From assembly GCA_036378175.1 (NCBI GenBank), contig DASUWY010000029.1:1-38384 (forward strand): a stretch of DNA of 38,384 nucleotides, in the 5' to 3' direction. The stretch comes from Thermoleophilaceae bacterium (GTDB lineage Bacteria; Actinomycetota; Thermoleophilia; Solirubrobacterales; Thermoleophilaceae). Shown one piece after another: positions 16,794 to 22,659 of this stretch. The notes under the pieces were generated by a model, which was given only the letters and a program-made list of their open reading frames with translations, did not search any database and had not been told where the DNA came from. The stretch's first letter is position 1. Each line of letters begins with the position of its first letter. Both the position numbers and the translations under genes were made by a program.

Positions 16794-18038
16794 GTGGCCG
16801 GCGGCAAACTCCAGGCCCCGCGGGGCACATTCGACGTGCTGCCCGAGGAAGGCAGGCGGCGCGCCGCGCTGCGCGCGATCTGTGAGGAGCTGATCGAGCC
16901 CGCCGGCTACGGCCCGGTGGACACTCCGATCTTTGAGGCCACCGAGCTCTTCGCGCGCGGGGTGGGGGAGACCACGGACATCGTGCAGAAGGAGATGTTC
17001 ACCTTTGAGGACCAGGGCGGCCGCTCGCTCACGCTGCGCCCGGAGGGAACCGCGGGCGCGTGCCGCGCGTACCTCGAGCACGGGATGCACAAGCAGCCGC
17101 AGCCCGTGAAGCTCTGGTACTGGGGGCAGTTCTTCCGCCACGAGGCGCCCCAGGCGGGCCGCTACCGGCAGTTCAACCAGGTGGGCGTGGAGGCGATCGG
17201 CTCCGACGACCCGTCGCTCGACGCCGAGGCGATCCTGCTGCTGTCGCAGATCCTGGAGCGCGCGGGGGCGAAGGGCGTGCGGCTGCGGCTCGGCAGCCTC
17301 GGCACGCCCGAGACGCGCCGCGCCTACTCGGACGAGCTCCGCGAGTACCTGCGCAGCCACGAATCCGAGCTCTCCGACGAGGTGCGCGACCGGCTCGACG
17401 CGAACCCGCTTCGGGCGTTCGATTCGGACCACCCGGGCACGAGGGCCGTGGTGAAGGACGCTCCCAAGCTGCTCGACCGCCTGAACGAGGACGACGCCGC
17501 GCACTTCGCGGAGGTGCGCGCGCTGCTCGACGAGGCAGGGCGCGACTACGAGATCGACGCGGCGCTGGTGCGCGGCCTCGACTACTACACGCGCACCGTG
17601 TTCGAGTTCACGAGCGACGCCCTCGGCGCTCAGAGCGGAGTGGGCGGGGGCGGCCGCTATGACGGCCTCATGGAGCAGCTCGGCGGTCCTCACACGCCGG
17701 GAGTCGGCTGGGCGGCCGGGATCGAGCGCATCCTGATGGTGTCGGAGCTGGGCGCCCCCAAGGTCGCGGCCGACGTGTACGTGGTGCGCGATGGAGCCGG
17801 CACGGCGACCGAGTTCAAGACTCTCGCCGCGCTCCGGGACGCCGGCTTCACCGCCCAGATGGAACAGGCCGGCCGTTCGGTGAAGGGGCAGTTCAAGCAG
17901 GCGGACCGGCTTGGCGTTCGAGCCGTGCTGATCGTGGGTGCAGACGGGCTTTCGGTGCGGGACATGCAGTCCGGCGACCAGCGCGACATGCCGGACCTGG
18001 CCGGGGCGCTGCAGGCGCTCAAGGAGGTGCTTGCGTGA
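16794..18038 (+). CDS. hisS: Histidyl-tRNA synthetase
   Basis: 414 residues, the usual size. Class II motif 2 in FRHEAPQAGRYRQFNQ, histidine-specific motifs RGLDYYTRTVFEF and GGGGRYDGL, motif 3 GVGWAAGIERILM, and a C-terminal anticodon-binding domain (about residues 325-414). Charges tRNA-His with histidine in the cytosol. The GTG at 16794, one base after the preceding stop, gives the family-typical start GGKLQAPRGTFDVLPEE. The gene ends with the ribosome-binding site of aspS. Confidence 0.96.
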   Translation: MAGGKLQAPRGTFDVLPEEGRRRAALRAICEELIEPAGYGPVDTPIFEATELFARGVGETTDIVQKEMFTFEDQGGRSLTLRPEGTAGACRAYLEHGMHKQPQPVKLWYWGQFFRHEAPQAGRYRQFNQVGVEAIGSDDPSLDAEAILLLSQILERAGAKGVRLRLGSLGTPETRRAYSDELREYLRSHESELSDEVRDRLDANPLRAFDSDHPGTRAVVKDAPKLLDRLNEDDAAHFAEVRALLDEAGRDYEIDAALVRGLDYYTRTVFEFTSDALGAQSGVGGGGRYDGLMEQLGGPHTPGVGWAAGIERILMVSELGAPKVAADVYVVRDGAGTATEFKTLAALRDAGFTAQMEQAGRSVKGQFKQADRLGVRAVLIVGADGLSVRDMQSGDQRDMPDLAGALQALKEVLA

Positions 18039-19789
18039 AGCCACCGCGCCCGAATCTCTACCGAGACACCTGGGCGGGCGACGTTCGCGCAGACCACGTG
18101 GACCAGGAGATCCGCGTGGCGGGCTGGGTCCACCGCCGCCGCGACCACGGCGGGCTGATCTTCATCGACCTTCGCGACCGCACCGGGATCCTCCAGCTCG
18201 TGTTCCGCCCGGAGGAGGCGCCGCAGGCCCACGCCGCGGCGCACTCGCTGCGCTCGGAGGACGTGCTCACCGCGCGCGGCCGGGTGGTGCGCCGCGAGGA
18301 GGGAACCGTCAACCCGCAGCTGCCCACCGGCGAGGTGGAGCTTGCCGTGGACGAGATCGAGCAGCTGGCGGACGCCGAGACGCCTCCGTTCGAGGTGGAC
18401 AGCGACAAGCAGGTGGACGAGCTGCTGCGGCTCCGCTACCGCTACCTGGATCTGCGTCGCGAGCCGATGCAGGAATCGATCGAGCTGCGACACCAGGTTG
18501 TCGCCGCGATCCGCGACTACCTGAACGAGCGCGGCTTCCTCGACATCGAGACGCCGTTCCTCACCCGCTCGACGCCGGAGGGCGCGCGCGACTTCCTCGT
18601 GCCGAGCCGCATCGATCCCGGCTCGTTCTACGCGCTGCCGCAGTCCCCTCAGCTGTTCAAGCAGCTCCTGATGGTCGCCGGCTTCGAGCGCTACTACCAG
18701 ATCGTCCGCTGCTTCCGCGACGAGTCCTCGCGCGCTGACCGGCTGCCCGAGTTCACGCAGCTCGACATGGAGATGTCGTTCGTGGAGGAGGAGGACGTGA
18801 TCGGCCTCTGCGAGGGCCTGATCCAGGCGTTTCTCGCGGCGGGCGGCGTGGAGGTGAGCGTGCCGTTCGACCGCGTGAGCTACGCGGAGGCGATGCTGCG
18901 CTATGGCACCGACCGCCCGGACCGCCGCATCGGCATGGAGATCCAGGATCTCGGCGAGGCGTTTGCGCATTCGGAGTTCCAGGTCTTCCGCGGCGCGCTC
19001 GAGTCGGGTGGCGTGGTGCGCGGGCTGAAGGCGCCGGGCGGCGACCTCACCCGCAAGCGCTTCGACGAGCTCACCGAGCAGGCGAAACAGCTCGGCGCGA
19101 AGGGGCTCGTCTGGGCCGTGGTGGAGGCAGAAGGCTGGCGCTCGCCGATCGCCAAGTTCCTCAAGCCCGAGGAGATCAGCGCTGTGGCGTCACAACTGGA
19201 CGCCGCCGAGGACGACGCGATCCTGATCGTGGCCGACACGGCGGACATCGCGGCGCGCGTGCTCGGCCAGCTGCGGCTCGAGCTCGCGCCGGCGGCCGAG
19301 GGTCACGACCTCCTGTGGATCGTCGACTTCCCGATGTTCGAGTGGAACGAGGACGAGAAGCGCTGGGACGCGTTGCATCACCCGTTCACCAGTCCGAAGG
19401 GTGAGCTCACCAGCGATCCTGGCGGCTGGTCGAGCCGCGCCTACGACGTCGTCTGGAACGGCTGGGAGATCGGCGGCGGCTCGATCCGTATCAACCGCCC
19501 CGACGTGCAGCGCAAGGTCTTCGAAGCCCTCGGCATAGGCGAACAGGACGCCCAGGAGCGCTTCGGCTTCCTCCTCGACGCCCTCAAGTACGGAGCCCCG
19601 CCCCACGGCGGAATCGCGTTCGGAATCGAACGCATTGTGGCCATGCTGAGAGGAAGCGACTCGATCAGAGAAGTGGTCGCCTTCCCAAAGGCAGCGTCGC
19701 AGGCAGACCCGCTCACAGGAGCACCAGCACCCGTGGACCAAGAGCAACTGGACGAGCTAGCACTGAAGGTAACGCGACCTCGGGATTAG
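18035..19789 (+). CDS. aspS: Aspartyl-tRNA synthetase, probably non-discriminating
   Basis: 584 residues: OB-fold anticodon domain, class II core with FRDESSRADRLPEFTQLDMEMSF (motif 2 region), the bacterial insertion domain and motif 3 GIAFGIERIVAML. Residue H38 (in RRRDHGG) and G90 (in REEGTVN) match the His/Gly pair that marks non-discriminating AspRS such as that of Pseudomonas aeruginosa. It would then charge both tRNA-Asp and tRNA-Asn, with GatCAB amidating the latter. The GTG at 18035 overlaps the hisS stop and has AAGGAGG seven bases upstream. The last 40 codons use unusually many A-ending codons compared with the rest. Confidence 0.95.
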   Translation: MKPPRPNLYRDTWAGDVRADHVDQEIRVAGWVHRRRDHGGLIFIDLRDRTGILQLVFRPEEAPQAHAAAHSLRSEDVLTARGRVVRREEGTVNPQLPTGEVELAVDEIEQLADAETPPFEVDSDKQVDELLRLRYRYLDLRREPMQESIELRHQVVAAIRDYLNERGFLDIETPFLTRSTPEGARDFLVPSRIDPGSFYALPQSPQLFKQLLMVAGFERYYQIVRCFRDESSRADRLPEFTQLDMEMSFVEEEDVIGLCEGLIQAFLAAGGVEVSVPFDRVSYAEAMLRYGTDRPDRRIGMEIQDLGEAFAHSEFQVFRGALESGGVVRGLKAPGGDLTRKRFDELTEQAKQLGAKGLVWAVVEAEGWRSPIAKFLKPEEISAVASQLDAAEDDAILIVADTADIAARVLGQLRLELAPAAEGHDLLWIVDFPMFEWNEDEKRWDALHHPFTSPKGELTSDPGGWSSRAYDVVWNGWEIGGGSIRINRPDVQRKVFEALGIGEQDAQERFGFLLDALKYGAPPHGGIAFGIERIVAMLRGSDSIREVVAFPKAASQADPLTGAPAPVDQEQLDELALKVTRPRD

Positions 19790-19823
19790 TCTGCAGTTCT
19801 GCAATTCAGCACCTCTGCAACTC
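19790..19823. repeat. Tandem 8-bp repeat, locus 2
   Basis: Starts on the first base after the aspS stop: TCTGCAGT, TCTGCAAT, TCAGCACC, TCTGCAAC, then TC. The period is exactly eight. The unit (TCYGCAAY) is the same as at 4144-4178. Confidence 0.65.
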
Positions 19824-19857
19824 CCTGAGGGCCGCCCTCCCACACACCAGGTACCGC

Positions 19858-19866
19858 TGCTAACTT
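19858..19866 (+). promoter_or_regulatory. Extended -10 promoter of the structured RNA
   Basis: TGCTAACTT combines a TGn extension (19858-19860) with a TAACTT hexamer (19861-19866). The first base of the RNA's closing stem (19874) is seven bases further on, at the position expected for the transcription start. No -35 consensus is visible. Confidence 0.55.
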
Positions 19867-19873
19867 TGCACGC

Positions 19874-20036
19874 GGCCCGAGCTTGTTCGTGAGCCGTCTC
19901 AATGTTTGAGCCAACACCATGGGAGCCGGGAGTCCGGCTCGGGGTTGGGCCGTGGCCCGCCCCGGAGGACACCCAATCTTGCTGAGCAAGGTTCAACTCC
20001 CGAGGCGGCAGCGGCAAGCTGGGGCCATTTTTCTTT
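19874..20036 (+). ncRNA. ssrS: Structured non-coding RNA, candidate 6S RNA
   Basis: Closing stem GGCCCGAGCTTG (19874-19885) with CAAGCTGGGGCC (20015-20026), 11 of 12 pairs. Then an internal loop and a second stem GCCGTCTC (19893-19900) with GAGGCGGC (20002-20009), then a large open region. Its 3' side can form a small hairpin (CTTG/CAAG, 19978-19990), and its apex holds strong hairpins (GAGCCGG/CCGGCTC at 19923-19940; GGGG..GGGC/GCCC..CCCC at 19941-19963). The T-run ATTTTTCTTTCT follows the closing stem. A long rod with a central bubble and about 155 nt is the form of 6S RNA, which binds sigma-A RNA polymerase. In Bacillus the 6S-1 gene bsrA lies in the same aspS-mnmA neighbourhood. Identity is inferred; a different structured RNA cannot be excluded. 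Confidence 0.6.
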
Positions 20037-20070
20037 CTCTCGGCCCACGTTTCTGAGACCCTTTCACCAC

Positions 20071-21531
20071 ATGGGCGACATCGCGCAGCTCGCGGACCAT
20101 CTCTCGGCGCCGCGAGGCCAGGGACGGCTGGAGGGCTGGGCGCACTTCGGGGTGGCCGGCGGCGCGGCGTGCGGCGACCTCGTGCGGATCGCGGTGCGCG
20201 TGGAGGGGGACCGGATCGCGGAGAGCGGCTTCACGGCGAGCGGCTGCGCTGCCGCACGGGCGGCCGCCAGCGCGGTGGTCGAGCTCACCGAGGGCACCCT
20301 CTTCCTCGACGCCGCGCGGCTCACCGGCGACAACATCTCGGAGGAGCTCGGCGGGCTGACGCCGCTCGGCCGGCACGCGGCGGACCTCGCGGCCGAGGCG
20401 CTTCACCGCGCCCTGGGCGCCGCCGCCCGTGACGGCGCGCCCCGCCTCCCGCAGGACGAAAGGCGCACGCTTGTGGCCATGAGCGGCGGCGTGGACAGCG
20501 CGGTGGCGGCGGCTCTCGCGCTCGAGGCCGGTCACGAGGTTGTGGCCGTGACGCTCGAGCTGTGGGCGCATCCGGAGAACGACGGCGAGCGCAGCTGCTG
20601 CTCTCCGCAGGCGGTGATCGGCGCGCGCGCCCTCGCGCACCGAATGGGTCTTCCTCACGTGACTCTCGACCTCCGCGATGCGTTCAAGCACGAGGTGGTG
20701 GAGAACTTCGTGGAAGAGCACGACGGCGGCCGAACGCCCAATCCGTGCGTGCGCTGCAACGGTCTCGTGCGCTTCGACCGCATGCTCGCTCTCGCCGGCG
20801 CGCTGGGGGCCGCGCGGCTCGCCACGGGGCACTACGCGCGCGTCGAGCGCGACGGAAGCGGGCCGCTGCTTCGGCCCGCCGCCGATCCGCGCAAGGACCA
20901 GACGTACATGCTCGCGCGCCTCGAGCCGCACGAGCTCGAGCGCCTGTGGTTCCCGCTCGGCGAGCTGGAGAAGCCCGCGGTGCGCGAGATCGCGCGGCAG
21001 CAGGACCTGCCGGTGGCCGAGAAGCCCGAGAGCCAGGACCTCTGCTTCCTCGCGGGGATCGATCGCCGGCGGCTTCTCCGTCCGGGCAGGCCCGGCGACA
21101 TCGTCGACCGGCGCGGTCGCGTCCTCGGCCGGCACTCCGGCCAGGAGGGATTCACGGTCGGCCAGCGTCGCGGTATCGGCGTGGCGGCGCCCGAACCTCT
21201 GTACGTCCTCCACAAGGACGCCACCAGCGGCCGCGTGACGGTGGGCCCGCGCGAGGCGCTCGCCACCACTCGCGTGCCGGTGACCGGGGCCCGGCTGCTG
21301 CGCCCCGGCGCGGCTGTGAACCGCGTGAAGCTCCGCTACCGCGCGGCGCCGATCGCGTGCCGCGTGCTGGGAGATCGCGGGGCCGGTGAGCACGAGAGGA
21401 TCGACGTCCTGCTGGAGTCGCCGGTGGACGGCGCCGCGCCCGGTCAGACTGCATGTCTAATGTGCGATGACTCCATCGTGGGATGGGGAACGATCGCCGA
21501 ACCCGACCTGGAGGCAGCGAATGCCGCATGA
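20071..21531 (+). CDS. mnmA: tRNA 2-thiouridine synthase MnmA with fused NifU/IscU-like N-terminal domain
   Basis: 486 residues. Residues 1 to about 118 resemble an Fe-S scaffold: A-C34-G-D and S-G-C59-A match the first two cluster cysteines, while the third (expected after His in RHAADLAAEAL) is Ala103. From residue 131 a full MnmA follows: PP-loop SGGVDS (138-143), a CC pair at 176-177, N-P-C226-V-R-C229-N and S-Q-D-L-C325-F with the catalytic cysteines, and the C-terminal beta-barrel with GFTVGQRRGIG. It thiolates U34 of tRNA-Lys, -Glu and -Gln. The ATG at 20071 has no clear Shine-Dalgarno. The 3' end overlaps the next gene by 11 bases. The fusion suggests direct cluster or sulfur supply to MnmA. 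Confidence 0.88.
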   Translation: MGDIAQLADHLSAPRGQGRLEGWAHFGVAGGAACGDLVRIAVRVEGDRIAESGFTASGCAAARAAASAVVELTEGTLFLDAARLTGDNISEELGGLTPLGRHAADLAAEALHRALGAAARDGAPRLPQDERRTLVAMSGGVDSAVAAALALEAGHEVVAVTLELWAHPENDGERSCCSPQAVIGARALAHRMGLPHVTLDLRDAFKHEVVENFVEEHDGGRTPNPCVRCNGLVRFDRMLALAGALGAARLATGHYARVERDGSGPLLRPAADPRKDQTYMLARLEPHELERLWFPLGELEKPAVREIARQQDLPVAEKPESQDLCFLAGIDRRRLLRPGRPGDIVDRRGRVLGRHSGQEGFTVGQRRGIGVAAPEPLYVLHKDATSGRVTVGPREALATTRVPVTGARLLRPGAAVNRVKLRYRAAPIACRVLGDRGAGEHERIDVLLESPVDGAAPGQTACLMCDDSIVGWGTIAEPDLEAANAA

Positions 21532-21913
21532 CACGATCGAGCTGACCACCCCCATCGGGCGTGACTGGGATCCCGTGGTGCGGCTCGTGCTCGGGGGCAT
21601 CGCGGACAGGCTCAACCTCGGCTTCGAGGAGCTCGACGATCTTCAGCTCGCCGTCGAGCGCCTGCTGCTCGAGGCGGGCTCGCAGGACTCGGTCACCCTC
21701 GCGTTCGAGATTTCCGAGAACGGCGTGCGCACGCGCATCGGCCCGCTGCGTGCGGGGGCGCTCGCGGAGGCGCTACAGGGGCCGCCCCCTCCACCGGGCG
21801 AGCTCACGCTGCGGCGCATCCTCGAGACGGTGGTCGACTCGTTCGGAGTCGAGCAGGTGGCCGACGACGGCCGGCTGATCGTCCGCCTCGAGAAGGTGGT
21901 CCGGGGAGCTTGA
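21521..21913 (+). CDS. RsbW-like anti-sigma factor / HATPase-like protein
   Basis: 130 residues. Opens MPHDTIELTTPIGRDWDPVVRLVLGG and contains LDDLQLAVERLLLEA, which lines up with the N-box helix of RsbW/SpoIIAB kinases, but the usual Asn (as in E..TNA) is absent, and no clear G1/G2 ATP-lid motifs follow. It may bind the sigma factor without kinase activity. The ATG has GGAGG six bases upstream, inside the end of mnmA. The next gene is a SigB/SigF-type sigma factor, the partner expected for such a protein. A homologous pair order is common in actinomycetes; the regulatory role is inferred from this. Confidence 0.68.
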   Translation: MPHDTIELTTPIGRDWDPVVRLVLGGIADRLNLGFEELDDLQLAVERLLLEAGSQDSVTLAFEISENGVRTRIGPLRAGALAEALQGPPPPPGELTLRRILETVVDSFGVEQVADDGRLIVRLEKVVRGA

Positions 21914-21915
21914 CG

Positions 21916-22659
21916 GTGACGTCGCTTCCAAGCTCGCAAACGGACGACCGCGAGCTGCTGCGCCGCTATCACGAGGACGGAGACCGCAGCGCCCGCGAGC
22001 TTCTCGTGCAGCGCCACCTGCCGCTCGTGCGCGCGCTGGCGCGCCGCTACGCCGGCCGGGGCGAGGCGCTCGAGGACATCGAGCAGGTGGGCGCGATCGG
22101 CCTGCTCAAGGCGATCGACCGCTACGAGCTTTCCCGCGAGGTCGCTCTCACCACCTACGCCACTCCCAACGTGGTGGGCGAGATCAAGCGCCACTTCCGC
22201 GACAAGGGCTGGGCGATCCGCATCCCGCGCGGGCTCCAGGAGCTGAACTCGAAGATGTCCGCCACGATCGAGCGGCTCACCGCGAAGCTCGGCCACTCGC
22301 CGAGCATCGCCGAGATCGCCCAGGAGCTGCAGACCACGCCGGAGCAGGTGCTCGAGGCGATGGAGGCGGGCTCGGCATACGCGCCGGTGTCGCTGTCGGC
22401 GGGCCCCACCGCCGAGGGCGAGCTCGATCCGATGGAGACGATCGGCTCAGAAGACCTGAACTTCGAGCGCTCCGAGCAGCGCGCCTCGCTCGAGCCGGCG
22501 CTCGAGATGCTGCCAGAGCGCGAGCGCGAGATCCTGCGTATGCGCTTCGAGGACGGGCTCACGCAGACGCAGATAGCGGAGCAGGTGGGCGTGTCTCAGA
22601 TGCACGTTTCGCGGCTGATTCGCAAGTCTCTTGCCCGCATGAGGGCGGAACTCTCTTAA
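21916..22659 (+). CDS. RNA polymerase sigma factor, SigB/SigF/SigG type
   Basis: 247 residues from the GTG at 21916, which has GGGGAG seven bases upstream (a TTG at 21910 overlapping the previous stop is the alternative). Region 2 (EDIEQVGAIGLLKAIDRY, with TTYATPNVVGEIKRHFRDKGW), region 3 (LNSKMSATIERLTAKLGHSPSIAEIAQEL) and region 4 (LPEREREILRMRFEDGLTQTQIAEQVGVSQMHVSRL) are all present; region 1.1 is absent. This is a group 3 sigma-70 factor for a stress or developmental regulon, probably held in check by the upstream RsbW-like protein. Confidence 0.92.
   Translation: MTSLPSSQTDDRELLRRYHEDGDRSARELLVQRHLPLVRALARRYAGRGEALEDIEQVGAIGLLKAIDRYELSREVALTTYATPNVVGEIKRHFRDKGWAIRIPRGLQELNSKMSATIERLTAKLGHSPSIAEIAQELQTTPEQVLEAMEAGSAYAPVSLSAGPTAEGELDPMETIGSEDLNFERSEQRASLEPALEMLPEREREILRMRFEDGLTQTQIAEQVGVSQMHVSRLIRKSLARMRAELS

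Follow-up and report, generated by a model that had tools for sequence, protein, structure and literature searches.

Genes and RNA features at the aspS locus

The window, that is, the whole stretch of 38,384 nucleotides of Thermoleophilaceae DNA that was analyzed, contains a predicted RNA gene between aspS and a gene for a NifU_N–MnmA fusion protein (Table 1). The AspRS protein is 92% identical in a very close relative, the Thermoleophilaceae metagenome-assembled genome L115. Between aspS and the RNA promoter, positions 19798-19835 hold a short element, CTCTGCAACTCCCTGAGGGC..., that lies near a palindrome and is possibly a dispersed repeat, with one other copy in the same genome and one in a sister genome (L027, about 1501-1535; L026). 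In the NifU_N domain of the fusion protein, an IscU-like scaffold, two cluster cysteines seem by eye to be kept (ACGD and SGCA) and the third is an alanine (HAAD); the same fusion is found in other orders of the class, where different cysteines are absent (L030, L037). Further downstream, at 21467-22659, a sigma-70 factor gene, whose SigB/SigF-like product has regions 2, 3 and 4, is overlapped at its start by a small open reading frame that has no Pfam match, an arrangement like that of an anti-sigma/sigma pair.

Table 1. Features of the aspS–mnmA region, with coordinates on the window.
Feature	Position	Strand	Basis or remark
aspS, upstream neighbour	18035..19789	+	Pfam tRNA-synt_2, GAD, OB-fold
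Extended -10 element TGCTAACTT	19858..19866	+	TG at 19858-19859; hexamer TAACTT at 19861-19866
6S RNA (predicted)	19872..20029	+	RF00013 model 1-187, 48.3 bits, E 6.5e-9
Closing stem	19874..19885 with 20015..20026	+	11/12 pairs, one G.G; covariation helix 1
Inner closing stem, 8 bp	19893..19900 with 20002..20009	+	Covariation helix 1; helix 2 in alignment A5
P2/downstream helix	19906..19912 (UUGAGCC) with 19990..19996 (GGUUCAA)	+	Comparative structure; predicted product-RNA template
Central bubble, 5' strand AACACCAUGGGAGCC	19913..19927	+	Conserved motif
Apical (internal) stem, imperfect rod GGG..UCC..CGGGG..GGGC / GCCC..CCCCG..GGA..CCC	19928..19974	+	Comparative structure, covariation
Central bubble, 3' strand, short hairpin AAUCUUGC-UGA-GCAAGGUU	19975..19993	+	Predicted fold; overlaps P2 3' strand
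T-run, terminator-like	20028..20036	+	T-rich bases after closing stem
NifU_N–MnmA fusion, downstream neighbour	20071..21531	+	Pfam NifU_N, tRNA_Me_trans

Identification of the 6S RNA gene

An earlier note on this DNA had proposed that the spacer encodes the 6S RNA of its lineage and had named an RF00013 search and a covariation analysis of homologous aspS spacers as checks. A default Rfam scan of the whole window reports only two tRNAs and no 6S RNA because the fast filters of Rfam drop the match at 19872-20029. With laxer filters on the aspS spacer, RF00013 is the sole family of the Rfam library with a significant match, which covers the full-length model and passes the curated cut-off (48.3 versus 46.4 bits), for the window sequence by a margin of only 1.9 bits. 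Relatives score 63.7 (G041), 60.3 (G009) and 60.1 bits (G014) at the same locus, matches in other orders of Thermoleophilia score up to 83.9 bits, and the relative L105 lies under the cut-off at 38.3 bits. Compared with RF00013, the window RNA has a shorter apical stem, with a gap of about 20 model positions.

Two covariance models of our own were also used: R1, built from 23 homologous loci that include the window sequence, and R2, a second, wider model. R1 scores 157.9 bits on the + strand of the window, a value inflated by the presence of the window among the 23 R1 sequences, and 40.9 bits on the - strand; R2 scores 139.1 bits. R2 recovers a 6S RNA that RF00013 misses in one genome (G071) and is thus the more sensitive model. 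A single R1 match occurs in 24 of the 31 genomes of the window's own family (f1) and in each of 41 genomes of family f3 of the same order; families f2 and f4 of that order have no match among those listed for R1. Assembly gaps explain at least four of the seven f1 misses, as three of these genomes lack any aspS match and in a fourth the contig ends about 130 bases from aspS. In the window's genome, R1 and R2 searches return one 6S copy only; a second copy was not found with RF00013 either, whose next match there scores 16.7 bits.

The RF00013 result, together with the many compensatory changes described below, supports the proposal, and comparison at the sequence level confirms 19872-20029 on the + strand as a genuine 6S RNA gene of the ssrS type with a predicted product of about 155-160 nt. 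A known family gains a member, and what is unusual is the taxon.

Secondary structure and covariation

The predicted fold of a 170-nt segment has a free energy of -88.5 kcal/mol, compared with -69.5 +/- 4.4 kcal/mol for shuffled sequences (z -4.3; 0 of 200 shuffles). The closing stem with 11 of 12 pairs and the second stem of 8 bp, both claimed earlier, are present. The apical hairpins of the same claim appear in the single-sequence minimum-free-energy fold and give way to one imperfect rod in the comparative structure; enforcing this rod costs only 2.3 kcal/mol (-86.2 versus -88.5). The rod varies in length within the family, given a 10-20-nt insertion in the apical loop (CCAGGC...) of some relatives (L066, L106, L071 and L020). 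On the 3' side of the central bubble, a short hairpin is predicted at -7.0 kcal/mol in the window RNA, and at least 51 of 62 loci have one that folds below -2 kcal/mol; of the others, about nine escaped the hairpin search pattern and visibly carry CCUGC-GAGA-GCAGG.

The main alignment consists of 23 strand-corrected loci, in which a core and the -10 element do not vary, and reveals a single 6S type in the window's family. RNAalifold predicts 42 pairs from these loci, 22 of them with compensatory change. Among the cells of the paired columns, 94.8% are paired versus 86.3% in shuffled alignments, double-change cells number 71 versus 19, and sliding the partners lowers the paired cells to 32-53%. 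In helix 1, which comprises the closing and inner closing stems, both sides are changed in 11 of 20 pairs. A 63-sequence alignment of families across the class (A5), made with a strict threshold that excludes weak antisense matches, gives 92.9% paired cells, 29 of 42 pairs double-changed and 461 double-change cells, with both sides changed in all six pairs of its helix 2 and 97.3% of the P2 cells paired; these pair counts are upper values because A5 was fitted to the structure of the model. For both alignments, none of 500 shuffles reaches the observed pair counts, and a slide of a single column already brings a sharp loss. The predicted closing stem, P2 and apical rod are supported by these compensatory changes.

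Predicted promoter and 3' end

The RNA is predicted to start at about 19872-19874. The extended -10 element that had been noted seven bases before the first base of the closing stem (19874) is present, and its position is conserved: of 62 loci, 56 have TGnTAnnnT starting 12-16 bases ahead of the RNA, at an estimated chance rate of about 2% in the 25 bases searched, based on five fixed letters. G19859, T19861, A19862 and T19866 do not vary among 23 relatives. The window's own family would rely on the extended -10. Loci of other families seem by eye to have a TTG-rich, -35-like element. The T-run claimed for the 3' end also exists. Over the 10 nt that follow the stem, the fraction of T is 0.34 in the own family and 0.56 elsewhere, and falls to 0.13-0.16 in the next 10 nt; no simple terminator is called at the window locus.

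Gene neighbourhood across lineages

In nearly all loci examined in Thermoleophilia and other classes of the phylum, the gene immediately upstream of the 6S gene is aspS. The link to Bacillus bsrA that had been drawn from the aspS neighbourhood is real: B. subtilis bsrA is flanked by aspS and yrvM (PMC11077062), and RF00013 matches occur just behind aspS in a Bacillus sp. (L163), Thermosyntropha, Syntrophomonas, other Bacillota and one Chloroflexi metagenome-assembled genome. The downstream gene varies. It is mnmA in the window's own family, and in other orders mnmA is found about 700-850 nt further downstream. Judged by sequence alone, the gene in this position encodes a RarA-like ATPase in other classes and a TcdA/YrvM-like protein in Bacillus.

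Proposed function of the RNA

Where would a product RNA start? All 62 loci carry the motif GA(G/C/A)CC(G)AA(C/T) in the 5' strand of the bubble, 61 of them ending it with C, and the conserved unpaired start motif GAGCCAAC is present. The product RNA of B. subtilis 6S-1 starts at nucleotide 40 (PMC8876501) and reads 5'-GUUCGGUCAAAACUA (PMC12005410). Alignment of the motif to Bacillus places the start at C19915, from which we infer a product RNA 5'-GUUGGCUCAAACAU that would share 10 of 14 positions with the product of B. subtilis 6S-1.

We propose, with a probability of about 95%, that this is the single 6S gene of the genome, that it is expressed from its own sigma-70-type extended -10 promoter behind aspS, and that its RNA holds RNA polymerase until a product RNA frees it. 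The proposal rests on what was observed: homology and structure, a conserved promoter motif, synteny and copy number. That the RNA binds polymerase, serves as template for a product RNA and is under growth-phase control is what membership of the 6S family would lead one to expect. The rod with its central bubble would mimic an open promoter, so that the housekeeping sigma-RNA polymerase holoenzyme would be held by the RNA when growth slows. Once nucleotides are available again, the polymerase would initiate at C19915 and copy P2 into a short product RNA predicted to begin GUUGGCUCAAAC. Its synthesis would open P2 and refold the bubble in the manner of Bacillus 6S-1, releasing the polymerase. 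Prediction has the 3' hairpin of the bubble formed before release, which is the situation in Bacillus 6S-1 and differs from that in E. coli (PMC8876501), so a release of the Bacillus kind is expected.

Three other readings of the locus deserve consideration. About 41 nt separate the end of the RNA from the mnmA start codon, and the closing stem is followed by a T-run, as might be seen in a cis-acting leader (a riboswitch or attenuator) of the mnmA fusion gene. However, aspS is the constant upstream neighbour while the downstream gene changes between lineages, which contradicts an mnmA leader, and the only significant family match is to RF00013; a leader is very improbable. An Ms1-type RNA, which would bind core RNA polymerase without sigma, comes to mind because the genome belongs to Actinomycetota, the phylum in which Ms1 is the known polymerase-binding RNA (PMC9130861). 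The full RF00013 match, the location behind aspS and the retained product-RNA start motif argue against it, as do the length of about 158 rather than about 300 nt and the end hairpins and HAD-IB hydrolase neighbour that mark Ms1 (PMC9130861), and we give this reading still less credence than the leader.

The region is also 66% G+C and folds easily, as would a functionless stable fold such as a read-through terminator region of aspS. Covariation refutes this idea, and the conservation of the unpaired GAGCCAAC, of the promoter and of the RNA throughout the class speaks against it as well, which makes it the least plausible of all, with almost no weight. A 6S RNA that sequesters polymerase thus remains our preferred reading.

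Distribution and probable loss in Actinomycetota

DNA homologues of the locus occur in 25 of 61 relatives, a few of these matches being partial or to a separate short repeat. RF00013 matches 119 of 199 genomes of the class Thermoleophilia, which NCBI taxonomy places in Actinomycetota, and 140 of 396 genomes sampled across the phylum. Families f2 and f4 (e.g. L196-L215) have aspS and no 6S RNA after it, and searches for a diverged copy with RF00013, R1 and R2, over whole genomes and unfiltered aspS loci, gave nothing above noise. In one genome (G155), no more than about 35 nt separate the aspS stop from the start of an mnmA-type gene. The presence of aspS and the lack of a detectable 6S RNA in f2 and f4 suggest clean losses.

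6S RNA has been described as unknown in Actinobacteria except for a Streptomyces candidate (PMC11077062, PMC9130861), and a limited literature search returned no paper that names 6S RNA together with Thermoleophilia or Coriobacteriia. The window thus has an ordinary 6S RNA where the literature reports none, and because many of these genes pass the Rfam cut-off, routine annotation may mark them already. A 6S gene at aspS was probably ancestral to Actinomycetota and shared with Bacillota; Thermoleophilia and other deep classes would have retained it, and independent losses would account for its absence from at least two families of the order and from Actinomycetia, where Ms1 took over. If this is true, the published absence of 6S RNA from Actinobacteria is a secondary loss. 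A 6S RNA at the Bacillus locus in Thermoleophilia would provide a place and an outgroup for dating the replacement of 6S RNA by Ms1, and sister families with and without 6S RNA in one order offer a natural comparison for the cost of the loss.

Comparison with known polymerase-binding RNAs

Like the window RNA, Ms1 of Mycobacterium and Streptomyces has a central bubble and comes from the same phylum; it binds polymerase, as the window RNA would. Ms1 is about 300 nt long, has extra hairpins at both ends, binds core polymerase only and neighbours a HAD-IB hydrolase gene (PMC9130861). The window RNA has 158 nt and lies between aspS and mnmA.

The E. coli 6S RNA (ssrS) lies in another gene context. 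It is also a rod with a central bubble and has the GAGCC motif before the product-RNA start. The 9-bp hairpin in its 3' bubble strand forms only on release (PMC8876501).

B. subtilis 6S-1 (bsrA) differs from the window RNA in its length (about 190 versus about 158 nt), in the G+C-rich composition of the window RNA, in its downstream gene (yrvM versus mnmA) and in the existence of 6S-2 in the same organism, compared with the one copy found here. Both genes lie behind aspS on the same strand, and both RNAs have a central bubble with a short 3'-strand hairpin, predicted in the window RNA. They also share GA(C/G)C(C/G)AAC at the product-RNA start (GUUCGGUCAAAACU in Bacillus versus the predicted GUUGGCUCAAACAU). 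Judged by sequence, the RNA of the window is of the B. subtilis 6S-1 type.
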